The position numbers and the translations under genes are program-made. 61,970 nt of DNA from an uncultured Fidelibacterota bacterium. Its GTDB lineage: Bacteria > Fidelibacterota > Marinisomatia > Marinisomatales > UBA8229. The stretch is taken from NCBI GenBank assembly GCA_913041945.1, contig CAJWIT010000005.1, forward strand, positions 1-61,970. Direction: 5' to 3'. A model generated the notes under the pieces. It searched no databases, had not been told where the DNA came from, and saw only the letters and a program-made list of their open reading frames with translations. This document shows, in pieces, positions 28,283 through 59,430 of this stretch; the stretch's first letter is position 1; the number at the start of each line of letters is the position of its first letter.

Positions 28283-28729
28283 TCAACCTACCTTTGGCAG
28301 TATTTCAAACCAATTACCGCTGCGTTTATATATGAGCCACACAAGTAAAAAATAAATTGAATTTTCAATAATTTTTCCAACTCCAACCATCTCCCCCTCT
28401 TTTAATCCACAGCCACACTCAATATTATATCCCCGCAAGATTGCGGAACCAATTGCTATGATAAACATTCCCATCATTGCCATAGACAAAATTGACGCAC
28501 CAGTTATAAAAATACCTAGGATTAACCCTACCCCAACGGTTAGTTCCAGCCACGGTAAAATAAGCGCTAACAAATTTTCAGTTCCCAGTGGAAGCATATG
28601 GTAATGTGCAATATCCTGTGCAAATTCTCCAGGTGCGGATATTTTATCTAGACTTGCAAACACAAGGATGCCTCCAATTATCAGTCTAAATGAAATAATA
28701 AAAATTGAACTTTGGGTAATAAATCTCAT
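28283..28729 (-). CDS. MauE/DoxX-like membrane protein
   Basis: This 148-residue protein is predicted to have four membrane helices. The first carries LIIGGILVFASLDKI, the classic DoxX/MauE opening. The loop before the last helix holds a Cys-Gly-Cys (YNIECGCGLKEG), as in MauE-type proteins needed for disulfide formation in methylamine dehydrogenase. It is likely to act on thiols at the periplasmic face of the inner membrane. It overlaps the rhodanese gene by 4 bases and is the third gene of the selenoprotein operon. Its redox partner would logically be the rhodanese or the Cys-Gly-Sec lipoprotein, which is inference. Confidence 0.8.
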   Translation of the reverse strand: MRFITQSSIFIISFRLIIGGILVFASLDKISAPGEFAQDIAHYHMLPLGTENLLALILPWLELTVGVGLILGIFITGASILSMAMMGMFIIAIGSAILRGYNIECGCGLKEGEMVGVGKIIENSIYFLLVWLIYKRSGNWFEILPKVG

Positions 28730-29220
28730 TTTTCAATGGAATAGCCAGCTTGTTGCCATTCTGACCATCCACCGACAAATACAAAAATTTTTGTAAATCC
28801 CTCATTCTGTAAGTCATATGCAATATCTTCACTTGACCCGCAATCATCTCCATCGCAATATGTGACTATACTTCTATCTTTCCCCTGAAGCGAATCCAAC
28901 CTGAAAATTAATTCCATAAAATCGTTGCTATTCCAAGCCCCAAGTATATGTCCCTTCTCGTAATACTCTAAATCCCGTGCATCCACAAAAACTACATCCT
29001 CGTTATGGAATTTCCGTGCCTGATCTAAACCAATGGCTCTTAATACCGGTTCAGTTGCAATATCAGACAGAAGGTCATCAGGAGCGGCAATTTTTAACTT
29101 TCCTGCAAAAAGGGGAATTGGATCATCTCTCAGCCAATTACTTCCAAATCCAATTACAACAGAAATGATTAAAAAAAATAAAACTTGAAACAGCGAACTT
29201 TGGATAAATATTCTTTTCAA
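28726..29220 (-). CDS. Membrane-anchored rhodanese-domain protein
   Basis: This 164-residue protein has an N-terminal hydrophobic helix (~10-27, FFLIISVVIGFGSN) and then one rhodanese domain facing the periplasm. Family features are visible: VFVDARDLEYYEKGHILGAWN and the active-site loop TYCDGDDCGSS, where the first Cys is the predicted persulfide carrier and a second lies four residues on. Single-domain rhodaneses move sulfane sulfur between thiols. It overlaps both neighbours by 4 bases (selenoprotein upstream, MauE-like downstream), so all three are translationally coupled. Confidence 0.85.
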   Translation of the reverse strand: MKRIFIQSSLFQVLFFLIISVVIGFGSNWLRDDPIPLFAGKLKIAAPDDLLSDIATEPVLRAIGLDQARKFHNEDVVFVDARDLEYYEKGHILGAWNSNDFMELIFRLDSLQGKDRSIVTYCDGDDCGSSEDIAYDLQNEGFTKIFVFVGGWSEWQQAGYSIEK

Positions 29221-30392
29221 TTATTTTTCAATGATCTGATTGGACTTTTTAGTTTTTTCCCTGGAGGTAGATTTGGAATACCTTTGATTTCATTTTCTTT
29301 CTTGAATACACGATCAACAAAAGTCAGCATGTCTAAATCATCCCCGATTTTTCTACTCATAGACACAAGTTTATATTCACTTTGATTTATTGCCCTATCC
29401 AATTGATCCTTAGCTGTCTGTTTCTGTTTTCTTAACACATCAATGTTTCGAAGAATATTCGGTTGATTGGCATAAATTTCCTCAAATGATTTTTCCGGTT
29501 CCTTTTTTTTGTACCTTGCTATCCGTGTCTCCGTGTTTTTTACCTGTTGTTTATAATAAGAAATATCTACAAACGGCGAATCCAGGTTTACAATATTTAA
29601 ATCTATAACCGCTAAATATTTACCCTGCTTCCCTGGCGAGCAAATAAAAGGACCTGTCCCCTGAGCTTGGTTTTGGCGTGTTTTTTGGATTTCCCTGCTC
29701 AAGACAATATAATCTGCCTCTGCAAATTCCTTTTTGATGATTCCCCTTTCTTTTTTATCCGCATTCACAAGCATTACAATGATATCTGCTTCTCGCTTAA
29801 GCGTTTCTATGAACGATTTCCCAACCTGCAGGTAATTTTTCATGGTTAATTCAGTTACACTTGAAGGAAGCAAATTTGTGACTCCGATTATACCAATTTT
29901 GAAAGGAGGTCGTTCAACAATAATATATGGATCAAACACTCTTTCCCCTGATTTTTTGTCAAATAAATTAGCCGACAAAAACGGAATTGATGTGCCATCG
30001 GAAACAGTTTTTAAAAATTCGTAGCCAGCTGCAAGGTCAAATGCACCTACATTGATCGCTTCATACCCAATAACTTCATATCCCTTCACTAATGACTGCG
30101 CTTTAAATTTTGAGGAAGCTAGGTTTTGTTTCATGATTGTATTTGATGATTCAAATAGAGCATCTCCTGCATCAAGAATAACAGGGTTCTTCCCTTCCTT
30201 CTTTACAGATTCAATGTACTTCATTCTTCTAGGCAGACCGCCTATGGGATTCTTTTTTCACCCACAGGGATCAAGTTGACATCTGACATTCGATGTAACT
30301 ATGAAAGATAAAGAACCCTCAAGGTTCTTCTTTGCACAGGAAAATCCCGTAAGGAGTAAAATTGAGAATATGCTGATTTTAAGTTTTTTCAT
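29217..30392 (-). CDS. Selenoprotein candidate: Cys-Gly-Sec lipoprotein, UshA-like metallophosphatase fold
   Basis: From the ATG at 30390-30392 the frame encodes 391 residues if the in-frame TGA at 30258-30260 is read as selenocysteine (U45). Residues 1-19 are a lipoprotein signal (LLTGFSC, lipid Cys19). The N-terminal beta strand and loop read SNVRCQLDPCGU, then KKNPIGGLPRR. From memory, Cys relatives of this 5'-nucleotidase-like family read PCGC followed by GGLxRR. A SECIS-like hairpin starts 13 bases after the TGA. The fold continues with DAGD (74-77), but other metal ligands are gone: NVGAFD (114-119) in place of GNHEFD, and VNA and LSREI in place of SH and GHTH. Sequence between ATG and TGA is protein-like, arguing against a pseudogene. 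An SD-like AAAGGA lies about 18 bases before the ATG. selA and selB are in the window. Calling the gene from the ATG at 30224 would miss all of this. Confidence 0.85.
30230..30260 (-). promoter_or_regulatory. Bacterial SECIS element next to in-frame UGA
   Basis: On the minus strand, UGA (30260-30258) is followed by 13 bases and then a perfect five-base-pair stem UAGGC/GCCUA (30244-30240 with 30234-30230) closing loop GGUCU. The apical loop with GGUCU matches the essential GU-containing loop of the E. coli fdhF SECIS as I remember it, and the spacing is in the usual range. It would recruit SelB with Sec-tRNA. The hairpin lies inside the coding frame (codons for PIGGLPR), as bacterial SECIS elements do. 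Confidence 0.8.
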
Positions 30393-52401: not shown

Positions 52402-54999
52402 CTACAGTCCATGCTCTTTTTTTAATTTATCCAAAACCTGTAGGGCTTGAATAGGGGTCATTTTGTTCAGATCAAGTGCTGCAATGGCTTTTTTCAACTC
52501 ATTTTCTTTCTGCTCAAAGATAGATAACTGATTAGACGCGGGAATGGCCTGTCGCGTTCCATGGATATTCTCTTGGCTGATATGAAAGTTTAATATCTCC
52601 TTTGCTCTTTCGATTACTTCAGATGGTAATCCAGCCATTTGAGCTACATGTATCCCATAACTTTTGTCGCTTATTCCAGGTAAAATTGTACGAAGAAAAA
52701 CTATCTTATCGCCAAATTCCTTCACTGCTGCCTGAAAATTTTCCAAACGTTCCAAGGTATTTTCAAGATCCGTCAACTCATGGTAATGAGTTGCGAAAAG
52801 GGTACGGGCACCAACATTTGAATGATTATGAAGATGTTCCGTGATTGACCAAGCGAGTGATAATCCATCAAATGTGGCTGTTCCCCTTCCAATTTCATCA
52901 AGGAGAATAAGACTCTCGGGGGTTGCATTATTTAGAATATTTGCTGCTTCATTCATCTCAACAAGAAAAGTGCTTTCTCCTCCAGCAAGATTATCACTTG
53001 CACCCACCCTGGTAAACAGGCGGTCAACGATGCCAATTTTCGCTTTCTTTACTGGAATAAAGGAACCAATTTGGCTCATTAATACCAAAAGTCCAACTTG
53101 GCGAAGATAAGTGGATTTCCCTGCCATATTTGGTCCGGTGATCAAATGTATTTGACTGGTTTTTATATTCATCAAGGTGTCATTTGGAATGAATCGCTCG
53201 GTAGCAGGGAGAAGTTGTTCTACTACAGGATGCCTTCCTGCTTTTATCTCCAGACTGGGCTCCGTAATTAGCTTAGGTCTTACATAACGATTTCTGACTG
53301 CCCTCACAGAAAATGAGGATAACACATCCAGACGGTGCAATATCTTTGCGTTAATTTGAATATTGCGTGTTTCCTGCAAAATGTCCCTGCATAATTCCTC
53401 AAATATCCGGATTTCAATTGATTCAATTTTTTCTTCAGCTGATAAAATTTTCTCTTCATATTGCTTCAACTCCGAGGTAATATATCTCTCAGAATTTACC
53501 AATGTTTGTTTTCTAGTATAAAAATCAGGTACCTTGTGCTGGTGAGTCTTTGTAACCTCAATATAATACCCAAATATTTTATTGAAACCAATTTTCAGGG
53601 ATGGAATTCCCGTAGCTTCCCGCTCAGAATTCTGAAGATCTGAAATCCATTGTTTCCCACCAGATGAAAGTGATCGGAGTTCATCCAATTCCTTGTCAAC
53701 ACCTTGAAGAATGAATCCGCCCCGCTTTAAACTAGCAGGTGCATCTTCCTTTACTTTCTCAACAATAAGTTTCACTGTTTTTTTCAGATCCTTGAACTGA
53801 CTTGACAACTCTGCAAGTGCTTTATTACCAGAATCTTCCAAGTCCTTTTTCAGGAATGGAATTAAACCTAAACTCGATCCAAGCCCCCACACATCTCTTG
53901 GAGTTGCTTTCAATCTGCTGATCTTTCCAAGAATTCGTTCAAGGTCAGATATTTTCCCTAAATAATTTCTGATAGAATGCAGAGATTTTTTCTTTTGAAC
54001 AAAAGCCTCAACAATATTTTGCCGAATATTCAAGCGGGACAAACCTGTCAATGGCTGATTTAACCACTGCTTCAAAAGACGGCCACCTCCCGCTGTTACA
54101 GTCTCATCTAAAGCATCCAACAACGTCCCATGAGTACCCTGTGTAGACAACGATTGAAATACTTCAAGATTTCGGAGTGTAAAACCATCAAGACTCATGA
54201 TTTCTTCTTCAACTATAGGTCGAACTGATGTGACATGATCAAGAGTACTGTTTAGAGTATTCCTTATATGGTATAAAACGACCCCGCCAGCCGTAATTCC
54301 GTGCACCAAATTATCACAACCAAAACCCTTCAATGAATTGGTTTCGAAATGACTTGTGAGAGTTCGATTGCTTTGATCAAAATTGAAGAGCCAATCTTCT
54401 ACTTGAGTCACAAATGGTTTGAGTTCACGATACCATTCGGTTGTTGAATAGGTAATATTTTCACCCAAAAGAATCTCCCTGGGAGCAAATTTTCGCAGAG
54501 ATTCTGTGAGCTGGGAAAGGGTACATTCTCCTAAAAAAAATTCCCCGGTGGATTGGTCTAAAATAGCATATCCTGCATCACTATGATGAAAATACACACT
54601 GGCGATGTAGGTATTGGATTTCTGATTCAATGCCTGATCAGAAGTAATAGTTCCAGGAGTTACAACCTCAATCACTTCACGCTTCACAATTCCTTTTGCA
54701 AGTTTTGGATCCTCAACCTGCTCACAAATAGCTACTCTATGCCCTGCATTGACCAGTTTAGGAAGATAATTATCCAAAGCATGATGTGGAAATCCTGCCA
54801 GAGGAACATCAGAGGCAGCTCCATTTGCTCTCTTGGTGAGAACGATACCAAGTATTTTAGCTGTAATTTTTGCATCTTCATTAAATGTTTCAAAAAAATC
54901 CCCCATCCGGAATAGAACTATACTTTCCGGGTGTTGACTCTTCACTTCAAGATACTGCCTCATCAGCGGTGTACCAGGAATCTCAGATTTTTTACTCAC
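52402..54999 (-). CDS. mutS: DNA mismatch repair protein MutS
   Basis: A full-length 865-residue MutS. The mismatch-recognition domain has the Phe-x-Glu motif in FRMGDFFETF (~32). Connector and lever domains follow (~130-560). The ATPase has Walker A GPNMAGKSTYLRQV (~620), ESTFLVEM, Walker B LILLDEIGRGTATFDG and the H-loop ATHYHEL. The C-terminus has the short helical tail. The start overlaps the selB stop by 4 bases, so mismatch repair and selenocysteine decoding genes are coupled here. mutL is not in the window. Confidence 0.97.
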   Translation of the reverse strand: MSKKSEIPGTPLMRQYLEVKSQHPESIVLFRMGDFFETFNEDAKITAKILGIVLTKRANGAASDVPLAGFPHHALDNYLPKLVNAGHRVAICEQVEDPKLAKGIVKREVIEVVTPGTITSDQALNQKSNTYIASVYFHHSDAGYAILDQSTGEFFLGECTLSQLTESLRKFAPREILLGENITYSTTEWYRELKPFVTQVEDWLFNFDQSNRTLTSHFETNSLKGFGCDNLVHGITAGGVVLYHIRNTLNSTLDHVTSVRPIVEEEIMSLDGFTLRNLEVFQSLSTQGTHGTLLDALDETVTAGGGRLLKQWLNQPLTGLSRLNIRQNIVEAFVQKKKSLHSIRNYLGKISDLERILGKISRLKATPRDVWGLGSSLGLIPFLKKDLEDSGNKALAELSSQFKDLKKTVKLIVEKVKEDAPASLKRGGFILQGVDKELDELRSLSSGGKQWISDLQNSEREATGIPSLKIGFNKIFGYYIEVTKTHQHKVPDFYTRKQTLVNSERYITSELKQYEEKILSAEEKIESIEIRIFEELCRDILQETRNIQINAKILHRLDVLSSFSVRAVRNRYVRPKLITEPSLEIKAGRHPVVEQLLPATERFIPNDTLMNIKTSQIHLITGPNMAGKSTYLRQVGLLVLMSQIGSFIPVKKAKIGIVDRLFTRVGASDNLAGGESTFLVEMNEAANILNNATPESLILLDEIGRGTATFDGLSLAWSITEHLHNHSNVGARTLFATHYHELTDLENTLERLENFQAAVKEFGDKIVFLRTILPGISDKSYGIHVAQMAGLPSEVIERAKEILNFHISQENIHGTRQAIPASNQLSIFEQKENELKKAIAALDLNKMTPIQALQVLDKLKKEHGL

Positions 55000-56858
55000 A
55001 ACCTGTCACCTTTAATCCGTCCATTCTCTTCACGGAAAGTGAACCTACTTTTATCCAGGTATTCAAGGAGAGGAATAGCAGTTTTTCGAGTAAGATGGGT
55101 TAATGTTTTAAAATCCGGGACACTCAGTTTTTCCTTTGATGAAAAATATGATTTCAGCATGGAAATAAGTTTATTAAAATTTGATTTTCCCAACCAAAGT
55201 CCAGCTTTTATTTCAATCGATTTTTCCTTTCCTTTTAGTACATGGAGTAACTCCAAAATAGAGTCATCCTCTAAATGGGTTTTTTCCAAGATATCATTCA
55301 AGGATTGAGGTGCAAACTTGCTTTGTGCTAATATTTCAGAAATCAAATCTGCTTTCTTCTGGTCACTTGAAGAAAGGGAAATTTCATGATCTCTAAGGGC
55401 ATATCCTGCCTCGATTGGCAAAATTAATTTTTCGTTCACACAATCATTTATAACCATTGCAAACCATGATTCACTAAAACGTAGTTCCTTCTGAATAATA
55501 TCTCCATTGATAGATTTTCGATATGGATGCTGTTTGTGGAATTGCTTTATTCTTTCCAAAAACACTTTCTTGGCAAATGAAACCTTTTCTGGATTATATA
55601 CCAGCTTATTTCTTATCTCCAATCTATTTTCAGTAATAAACTGTTGAATATCCTCAATAGAACAATGAAAAACCCTTCCCCATTCCATTTCTGTTTTGGG
55701 TTGTGTCCAAAACCGATCTATAAATTGGTTGAATCGCTGGGATCTAACTGTAGATAGAGTATTCATCCAATTACGTATTTCGTTCCATTTTCCTTTCGGA
55801 TTTGGATCAAGTATAACTCCGCCACCAATAGTATGCATAGGAGAATAAGAGCGCATGACAAACCGATCATCCATTGCTGCAACCAGAGGTTTTTCTAACC
55901 TGATTAACATTATACCTGACTCCCCTGTTTTCAGACGTTTTCCTGAAATAGTTACACGTCCAAGAACTTCTGCAGTCCCCAAATGAATTCGAACTCTTTG
56001 TTTGGATTTTAATTCCCATCCAATTCCCGGAATCATTTGAACATGAGCGATAAATATGGAAGTTGAAGCAATCCACCCCGGTTGGACTAACTCAGCACCG
56101 CGCCATGCATGGTTTTTCTCAATACCTACTACATTCACAGCAGCCCGGTCACCCATGGATACTGTTTCTGTTTTTTCACCATGGCTCTGAAGACCTCGTA
56201 CTTTGCATTGTTGCCCAACAGGCTGACAATAAATTTCATCACCGACTGAAAGACTACCAGAAATGACCGTCCCTGTTACAACAATACCAAATCCGGTTTT
56301 TAGGAATACTCGATCTATGGGGAGTCGAAAAAATCCCCGGTCCAAAGTAAACCTCACTTTTTCAGCCTCATGTAACAGTGCCTGTCGCAATTCGGAAATC
56401 CCGGATTCTGGATTTACAGAAGTACGAATAATAGGGGCAGATTCTAAACTGGTACCAGCTACAATTTCATGTATTTCCATTTCAACCAGATCAAGCCAAT
56501 CCGGATCGCTAACCATATCCGTTTTTGTGAGTACAATCACACCCTGAGGAATACACAACAAAGAGAGGATTTGAAGATGCTCCTTAGTCTGAGGCATGAC
56601 ACCATCATCCGCTGCCACGACAACCAGAGCAATATGAATAGTTGAGACACCAGAAACCATGTTCCTGATAAACTTCTCATGTCCAGGTACATCAATAATG
56701 GTAATATCTTTATTGAGGAATGCAAAACCTAAGTCAATGGTCATACCGCGAGATTTTTCTTCTTGGAGACGATCTGTGTCAACCCCTGTCAAGGCCTTGA
56801 CTAATGCTGTCTTCCCATGATCAATGTGACCGGCAGTCCCGATGACAATTTGATTCAT
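54996..56858 (-). CDS. selB: Selenocysteine-specific elongation factor SelB
   Basis: SelB is an EF-Tu-like GTPase that delivers Sec-tRNA to UGA codons marked by a SECIS hairpin. The 620 residues are full length (E. coli has 614). G motifs are [16 protein letters not shown] (~8-23), DVPGHEKF (~56) and TKTD (~110). Domains II-III follow to ~380. Four winged-helix domains occupy the C-terminal ~230 residues, ending in [19 protein letters not shown], the RNA-binding part. It starts 3 bases after selA. Its presence implies active selenocysteine use; a candidate target is the lipoprotein at 29217-30392. Confidence 0.97.
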
Positions 56859-56861
56859 TAC

Positions 56862-58229
56862 TTAAACCTGGTTTATTACATCAATCAGAAGTGCAACCTG
56901 ATTGGGTAAAATCGTCTTCAAATCGATGAAGAAACGATTGCCGGATATGTACCCTACAACAGGAGTTTTTCCAGTCCGGAATCGGTACGCTAATTCTGAG
57001 ATTTTTTGATTTTTTGGGTAAAATCTCAAGGCCATGCTTTCAATTCCACAAGCAGGTAAAGAACCACTCCCGGCTTCAACAGTTGATTCAATTAAAGTAA
57101 TACCTAATCTGGATTTCCTTTTTGTGGAAATACTCTGAATTATTTTTCTGCCGCGTTTCCTTAACATGACCCGTTTGGTTGATAAGAGTGAAAGCGTCAA
57201 ATTATCCTTGGTGACTTCTTCAGAACGGTACGTTCTGAGAGTTTCTTCCATAAGGGCAATGGTAAATTTTCCACATCGAATCGTCCGGTAAATCGGGTTT
57301 AGTTCCATCCGTTTCAACAGACGATTTTTTCCAACAATTATCCCTGCTTGGGGGCCCCCCAACAACTTGTCACCAGAAAAGGTGATCACCACTGCACCAG
57401 ATTTGACAACATCCTGAACGGGGATTTCCTCGGGAAGATCTCTTTTTGAAAGTTTGATCAATGCACCACTACCCAGATCTGCCATTACCGGAATGTGTTT
57501 CTTTTTCCCCAATTCAACCAATTCATGTAGAGAGACCTCCTTTGTGAACCCCTTTACAACATAATTGCTCGTATGAACCCAAAGAATTAACCCTGTCTTC
57601 GTGTTGATTGCTTTTTTATAATCATTCAAGTGTGTCCGATTTGTTGTACCCACTTCTTTGAGAAAACAATTACTTTTCCTGATAATATCAGGAATCCGGA
57701 AAGAACCGCCTATTTCAACTTCCTGTCCTCGGGAAATAATGACTTCCTTACCTTCAGCCAATGTATTCAGAGCTAAAAGAACAGCTGCTGCATTGTTATT
57801 AACCATAAGGCTGTTTTCAGAACCTGTAATAGCGGCACAATGATCACGAACATGGTCAAGTCGATTTCCACGCGTACCTGTTTCCAGATTAAATTCTAAA
57901 TTGGAATACCCTCCGAGACGATTTATGACATTCTTTAGTCTTGTCTTTTGGATGGGCGCTCTCCCAAATCCTGTGTGAAGCACAATCCCAGTTCCATTAA
58001 TAATATTCTTCATGCTGGGTTGACAAAACTGGCCAACTTTTTGAACTATTTTCTTTGTGATTTCACTACGTGACTCAGCTAATTTATTTAACTTTGCCTG
58101 CTTCCGATACCAAGAAATTTCCTTATTAACAAAATATGTTATAATACTATTATCTAGCTTATTTAAGTCTTTTATCTCAAGTAATACTTCAGATACTGAT
58201 GGGAGATTTTGAAACTGATTTTTACTCAT
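56862..58229 (-). CDS. selA: L-seryl-tRNA(Sec) selenium transferase
   Basis: SelA converts Ser-tRNA(Sec) to Sec-tRNA(Sec) using selenophosphate and PLP. The 455 residues have the expected N-terminal helical domain (SVSEVLLEI), NGTGIVLHTGFGRAP (~78-92), NNNAAAVLLAL (~144), DLGSG (251-255) and the PLP lysine K288 in SGDKLLGGPQAG. It starts the selA-selB-mutS run. selD and the tRNA-Sec gene are not recognised in this window. Confidence 0.97.
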   Translation of the reverse strand: MSKNQFQNLPSVSEVLLEIKDLNKLDNSIITYFVNKEISWYRKQAKLNKLAESRSEITKKIVQKVGQFCQPSMKNIINGTGIVLHTGFGRAPIQKTRLKNVINRLGGYSNLEFNLETGTRGNRLDHVRDHCAAITGSENSLMVNNNAAAVLLALNTLAEGKEVIISRGQEVEIGGSFRIPDIIRKSNCFLKEVGTTNRTHLNDYKKAINTKTGLILWVHTSNYVVKGFTKEVSLHELVELGKKKHIPVMADLGSGALIKLSKRDLPEEIPVQDVVKSGAVVITFSGDKLLGGPQAGIIVGKNRLLKRMELNPIYRTIRCGKFTIALMEETLRTYRSEEVTKDNLTLSLLSTKRVMLRKRGRKIIQSISTKRKSRLGITLIESTVEAGSGSLPACGIESMALRFYPKNQKISELAYRFRTGKTPVVGYISGNRFFIDLKTILPNQVALLIDVINQV

Positions 58230-58278: not shown

Positions 58279-59430
58279 CTAAACCTTTTTTTTCAACAAC
58301 CAGGCAAGACCAATAGCGGGTATAAGTAAAATTGACATTGCAGGAAAAATTTTTGCTACTCCAAAATGTTCCGCAATAAGTCCGCCAATACCTGCTCCGA
58401 ATCCTCCTGCTCCGAAGCTAAAAAAGAAACTTATACCATATCCCACACCCCTATGGTTGCTTTGAGTAATTTGAGCAATGAGAGAATTTCCAATGGGCTG
58501 CATGCTAAAATGAACGATACCAAAAATAATACCGGAAAATATCATCATCATACCCGGAGTTAATCCAATCAGAGCAAGAAAAGGGACATTCAGTACCACA
58601 ATGATAAACAATAAATAGGCCTTGTCAAATCGACTACCAAAATATCCTCCCAATAATTGCCCAATTATCCCGGATAAAAGTACAAGAGTGGTTAAGATTC
58701 CTCCCCGAAGAGTAGGTGACCCAGTCCATTCTGCAGTCTGTAAAGTAAAATGCGTCGGTAAAAATGTTGTAAATCCGGCAAAAGTAATACCCATAAATAT
58801 TCCAATGGAATAATACAAAATCAGAGCCGTTTTATTGGTGACCTTTGTATTTCTATGATCTTCTTCAACAATCGTTTTTTTCATTATAGGAACCAGAAAA
58901 AAGGTAAAAAATGCTAAAACAAAGTTTACAAAAGCAAGAAACCCAAAGGCTGCTCTCCATGAAAAAAGAATCGTGAAACTTGCGGCGATAACTGGAGCCA
59001 AAGCCAATCCCAGTGATCCGGCGATACCGTGCAATGCCATCCCTTTGCTGATATTTGAAATCCTGCGGGATATCAATGTCAATCCTGCAGGATGATAAAT
59101 ACTACAGAATAAACCAAGTAAAGCTAATCCTGTTGCAAGCATCCACAACGATTGTGACATAACAATCACCATTGTGGCAACTATTGTCCCTGTTTGGTAA
59201 ATCAGCAACAGAACCCTGCCCCCAACTTTTGATTCAAAATACCCGGAAGGAATGGCACCAATACCAAACATGAGAGCACTGAGAGTGGCTATAAATCCTA
59301 AAACATCCAAACCTACAGAAAATTCATTTTTCAAGACTAACAGGATACTTGGAAAAACAAGCATGAAACTATGAACTGATAGATGAGAACCAGCTGTAAT
59401 AGTCAAAATGAATTTTTCGTCACGATTCAT
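58279..59430 (-). CDS. Major facilitator superfamily transporter
   Basis: A 383-residue polytopic protein with about twelve membrane helices. The MFS loop 2-3 motif is weak but visible (GYFESKVGGRVLL), with a counterpart in the second half (GGYFGSRFDKAYLL). The pattern in the first six helices (GLALLGLFCSIYHPAGLTLI and MALHGIAGSLGLALAP) resembles fosmidomycin-resistance/FSR-like permeases, whose helix 4 has the conserved YHPA element. The substrate is unknown. It lies between the rplS terminator and selA, 49 bases from the latter. Confidence 0.85.
   Translation of the reverse strand: MNRDEKFILTITAGSHLSVHSFMLVFPSILLVLKNEFSVGLDVLGFIATLSALMFGIGAIPSGYFESKVGGRVLLLIYQTGTIVATMVIVMSQSLWMLATGLALLGLFCSIYHPAGLTLISRRISNISKGMALHGIAGSLGLALAPVIAASFTILFSWRAAFGFLAFVNFVLAFFTFFLVPIMKKTIVEEDHRNTKVTNKTALILYYSIGIFMGITFAGFTTFLPTHFTLQTAEWTGSPTLRGGILTTLVLLSGIIGQLLGGYFGSRFDKAYLLFIIVVLNVPFLALIGLTPGMMMIFSGIIFGIVHFSMQPIGNSLIAQITQSNHRGVGYGISFFFSFGAGGFGAGIGGLIAEHFGVAKIFPAMSILLIPAIGLAWLLKKKV

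Follow-up and report, generated by a model that had tools for sequence, protein, structure and literature searches.

The UshA-like selenoproteins with a CxU motif (COG0737) were reported as a family in a 2008 ocean survey, with 76 Sec sequences (PMC2398784), and later reviews list them too (PMC9312934, where they are given as predicted, and PMC13188914). The family is listed among the predicted selenoproteins without known function. A related family, UshA-like (seleno)protein family 2 (NF049981), has its own Sec motif, CxxU (PMC13188914). The PCGU form is described by the model NF041198 (UshA_like_PCGU), which has 519 positions and a curated cut-off of 275 bits.

The gene described here lies in the window, i.e., the whole stretch of 61,970 nucleotides that was analyzed, and the closest relatives that carry a name are MAGs of Candidatus Neomarinimicrobiota, with 96-97% and 82% identity. 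It is a new, shorter member of the known UshA-like selenoprotein family. An earlier reading made from the sequence only had announced a hidden selenoprotein; the selenoprotein stands, whereas the family is not newly hidden, being the UshA-like CxU family of COG0737 (PMC2398784) and NF041198.

Comparison with the curated family models

The window protein shares with NF041198 the P-C-G-U motif and the UshA-like N-terminal domain, whereas it lacks the C-terminal cytochrome c554 part of the model and its gene is clustered with rhodanese and MauE genes. The match covers model positions 6-382 (E 1.5e-63) and yields 215 bits, which is below the cut-off because the cytochrome c554 part is missing: model positions ~399-518 are aligned by a separate 192-aa cytochrome. 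The cut-off is reached in 0 of the 61 genomes of the order. The 275-bit value also shuts out all Neomarinimicrobiota members tested, the probable cause being the cytochrome part in the model.

The selenoprotein is nearly phylum-wide in Neomarinimicrobiota, yet missed by the curated model; 217 of 245 genomes match the alignment of the UshA-like family, paralogues included. Against NF049981, related yet different in motif, the window protein yields a weak match, 27 bits versus a cut-off of 140. A partial literature search found no report of the near phylum-wide presence, of the Cys exchange in a Sec-less genus, or of the gene cluster.

Reading frame and in-frame TGA

The features of the locus are presented in Table 1. 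The minus-strand frame comprises 391 codons, and its sole interruption is a TGA, which takes the place of X in a Cys-Gly-X pair. The N-terminal reading is MKK...FSCAKKNLEGSLSFIVTSNVRCQLDPCGU-KKNPIGGLPRR..., in which codons 1-44 encode the signal peptide with Cys19 followed by SNVRCQLDPCG, and KKNPIGGLPRR comes after the TGA. Rereading and translating the minus strand reproduced each of these elements of the sequence-only reading, together with the single TGA, the upstream ATG and the start of the ordinary ORF. That reading was also correct in that ordinary gene calls lose the first 56 residues, given that the ORF finder output is 29217-30224. Standard gene finding would cut the gene short in this way, dropping both the export signal and the redox motif.

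Table 1. Features of the selenoprotein locus and of the Sec machinery within the window.
Feature	Position	Strand	Remarks
MauE/DoxX-family membrane protein	28283..28729	-	conserved CGC; third gene of conserved cluster
Membrane-anchored rhodanese	28726..29220	-	overlaps end of selenoprotein gene; conserved C-x4-C; weak NF041203 match
UshA-like selenoprotein gene	29217..30392	-	391 aa; Sec is residue 45; terminal TGA 29217-29219
Internal ATG	30222..30224	-	ORF start in standard gene finding; non-Met position outside genus
SECIS hairpin	30230..30244	-	5-bp stem UAGGC/GCCUA; loop GGUCU at 30239-30235
In-frame TGA	30258..30260	-	codon 45; Sec45 of PCGU
Signal peptide region	30332..30392	-	lipoprotein-type Cys at residue 19; conserved among Sec-form orthologues
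selB, selenocysteine-specific elongation factor	54996..56858	-	TIGR00475, 355 bits
selA, L-seryl-tRNA(Sec) selenium transferase	56862..58229	-	TIGR00474, 510 bits

An alternative is that the real gene starts at the internal ATG, in which case the TGA would be a regular stop or come from a sequencing error, and the upstream frame would be noise. Besides the ORF finder output, an AGAAG just 5' of the internal ATG speaks for this alternative, and the first ATG (30392) has no well-spaced Shine-Dalgarno site. However, codons 1-44 are evolving as coding sequence: 16 of the 22 differences from an 82%-identical congener fall at third positions, and it is in the most distant congener pair that these codons differ mainly at third positions. 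Codons 45-56 show no substitution between the window and three congeners. The comparison with one of the relatives (L027) is limited to codons 1-56, since a one-codon indel voids it past codon 57. The signal peptide is conserved, codon 57 does not encode Met in orthologues from outside the genus, and the TGA is common to fifty orthologues, being replaced by Cys where selA and tRNA-Sec are absent. A start at the internal ATG is hence extremely improbable.

Another SECIS-like TGA in the window, at 59236, was considered as a further Sec site and is taken as chance, given its short flanking frames and poorer loop.

Exchange of selenocysteine with cysteine and Sec machinery

Codon 45 was read in 50 Neomarinimicrobiota orthologues, namely 29 genes of the order (window included), four further members of the order, one second copy and 16 genes from other families. 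It is TGA in all 50, within PCGU and followed by GG(L/V). Since these orthologues come from independent assemblies, a sequencing error is excluded; an ordinary stop at this codon is rejected on the same 50 genes.

The sequence-only reading had placed the UGA on a Cys position of homologues, and Cys is found exactly there. All eight orthologues read from genus g15, whose assemblies are streamlined (0.4-1.0 Mb) and belong to the same order, have DCGC, and genome G191 has PCGC although selA is present. In genus g15, selA gave no true match, only weak off-family ones at a loose threshold, and tRNA-Sec was not detected in the nine genomes tested; loss of Sec decoding in this genus is likely. The Cys version of the gene in g15 (e.g., L047, L048, L050-L054) is also without the lipoprotein Cys, rhodanese or MauE. 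Other variants of the motif exist: three second UshA-like copies in genus g18 (L076, L108 and L109) lack both its Cys and its Sec, and a paralogue in the window's own genome (L067:2054-3154) has CYC at the Sec place.

The Sec machinery is complete in the genome. Both selA and selB are in the window, as had been claimed, and selD (387 bits) and tRNA-Sec (ARAGORN anticodon TCA; Rfam 63 bits), whose presence the sequence-only reading had proposed checking, are in the same assembly outside it. Together with the Cys exchange and the 50 orthologues, this supports the Sec reading, and the TGA at codon 45 is almost certainly selenocysteine; on these genomic grounds, Sec would actually be inserted into the UshA-like protein.

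The selD of this genome (L009, G000:C17:11212-12138) is itself a selenoprotein gene: its TGA lies within HGSGUACK, and a strong hairpin whose loop is GGUCC comes next.

Conservation of the SECIS hairpin

The SECIS-like hairpin noted after the TGA was located directly downstream of it. Between the UGA and the start of its GGUCU loop the distance is 18 nt, which is exactly the spacing in E. coli fdhF, whose sequence was checked against the E. coli collection and is present in 5,388 genomes. In comparison with the fdhF element, the loop and its distance are alike, whereas the stem sequence differs and the stem of the Neomarinimicrobiota gene is short (5 bp).

Across 27 distinct sequences, 84.7% of the stem pairs are standard, versus 76.7% in shuffles, and columns 18-30 pair as GC, AU, CG, UA and GU. 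The stem covariation is 0.298, against 0.131 when shuffled (0/500), and all slid controls score far below it. The loop is GGUCU in 30/30 order-level Sec sequences versus 1/7 Cys genes. This conservation owes in part to the conserved Gly-Gly-Leu codons, yet at these positions the codons of the Cys homologues are mostly different ones. Hence the conservation of the hairpin is far beyond chance, unlike its folding energy, which is unremarkable by itself (z -1.4).

Fold and active site

The AlphaFold model of the protein has a pLDDT of 87 and a pTM of 0.83, with low confidence at residues 46-49, the loop around Sec. With this model, the best Foldseek matches in the PDB are E. coli UshA (E 2.8e-19), and other fold matches include further 5'-nucleotidases and SoxB (4uwq). 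Export and the predicted fold are shared with the E. coli 5'-nucleotidase. The proteins differ in that the window protein carries Cys43-Gly-Sec45 in the loop that follows core strand 1, the place of UshA's first metal-binding motif, shows other residues at most of the aligned metal and catalytic positions, and lacks the nucleotide-binding C-terminal domain, for which the 391-aa protein gave no Pfam match.

The UshA metal and catalytic residues, which we take to be D41, H43, D84, N116, H117, D120 and H217, were compared over 17 aligned members. The positions of D41, N116, H117, D120 and H217 are replaced in 17/17 (by Asn for D41, variably for N116, mostly by aromatic residues for H117, and by Asn/Asp for H217), and that of H43 in 12/17, mostly by Arg/Phe, with His in the remaining five. 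By alignment, the protein lacks the full set of dinuclear metal ligands and the catalytic His-Asp pair of a 5'-nucleotidase. Nucleotidase function was rejected because these residues are mostly replaced, which also makes a phosphatase or hydrolase unlikely; judged from the alignment, the protein is probably not a phosphatase or nucleotidase. The relation to UshA in the sequence-only description (UshA/5'-nucleotidase-like) is therefore retained, but most likely not the nucleotidase part. A plasmid search gave distant nucleotidases only.

The protein could still be a metal-dependent phosphoesterase in which Sec and Cys serve as ligands in place of the lost Asp/His, given its UshA-like fold, the nearness of the Cys-Gly-Sec loop to the old metal site, and the D84 position, usually kept as Asp or Glu. 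However, that position is Asn in the Sec-less Cys lineage, the positions of N116, H117, D120 and H217 are replaced in all 17 members, and a relative (L068:3078-4652) has CLC at the Sec place in a fusion with cytochrome c554 and LysM domains, so that its CxC lies beside heme domains. We regard this alternative as improbable. The same relative, by its fusion to cytochrome c554, argues for electron transfer, and a redox rather than a hydrolytic function appears likely.

Neighboring genes and proposed function

Leads on function that can be tested are provided by the rhodanese and MauE neighbors, by the replacements at the phosphatase site, and by the change to Cys in the lineage without Sec machinery. 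Both neighboring genes are downstream of the selenoprotein gene in 27/27 order-level Sec loci whose contig is long enough. The window genes overlap at 29217-29220 (selenoprotein and rhodanese) and 28726-28729 (rhodanese and MauE). A Cys pair is conserved in both partners, and NF041203, which the rhodanese matches weakly, is itself a rhodanese-related (seleno)protein family. No paper combining MauE, rhodanese and a selenoprotein was found in a partial literature search.

In the mechanism we propose, SelB bound to the GGUCU hairpin would lead to decoding of the TGA as selenocysteine. The product would be exported as a lipoprotein with a phosphoesterase fold of the UshA/calcineurin-like type, most of whose metal site is gone, and would act in the periplasm as a selenol/thiol redox protein that cycles between a selenenyl-sulfide and its reduced form. 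The co-encoded rhodanese (C-x4-C) and MauE/DoxX protein (CGC) may join in thiol or sulfane-sulfur exchange. Overall, we hold it very likely that the locus encodes such a Sec-decoded Cys-Gly-Sec redox lipoprotein on a disused phosphoesterase fold, with rhodanese and MauE/DoxX partners. A more tentative extension, which we consider possible at best, is that the three proteins form a dedicated sulfur/selenol relay of the envelope, in which the disused phosphoesterase, recruited to carry redox equivalents, links the chemistry of sulfane sulfur to the membrane quinone pool.

The adjoining rhodanese gene would also suit a SoxB-like sulfur hydrolase or carrier, in which Sec holds a sulfane or sulfonate received from the rhodanese and the protein is not a plain oxidoreductase. 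The thiosulfohydrolase SoxB belongs to the same fold superfamily and is among the profile matches (TIGR04486, E 9.5e-11) as well as the fold matches, with no close similarity. SoxB requires its metal centre, though, and by alignment that centre is mostly missing here, which leaves this alternative rather doubtful.

Returning to the redox lipoprotein, the partnership with rhodanese and MauE is not obligatory, since the two genes are absent beside the Cys-form genes and, in several deeper families, from the roughly 2 kb around the selenoprotein gene that were examined. We see about an even chance that the selenoprotein works with both proteins. All three genes also occur together at six loci of families f16 and f18, where rhodanese and MauE lie to the opposite side of the selenoprotein gene.
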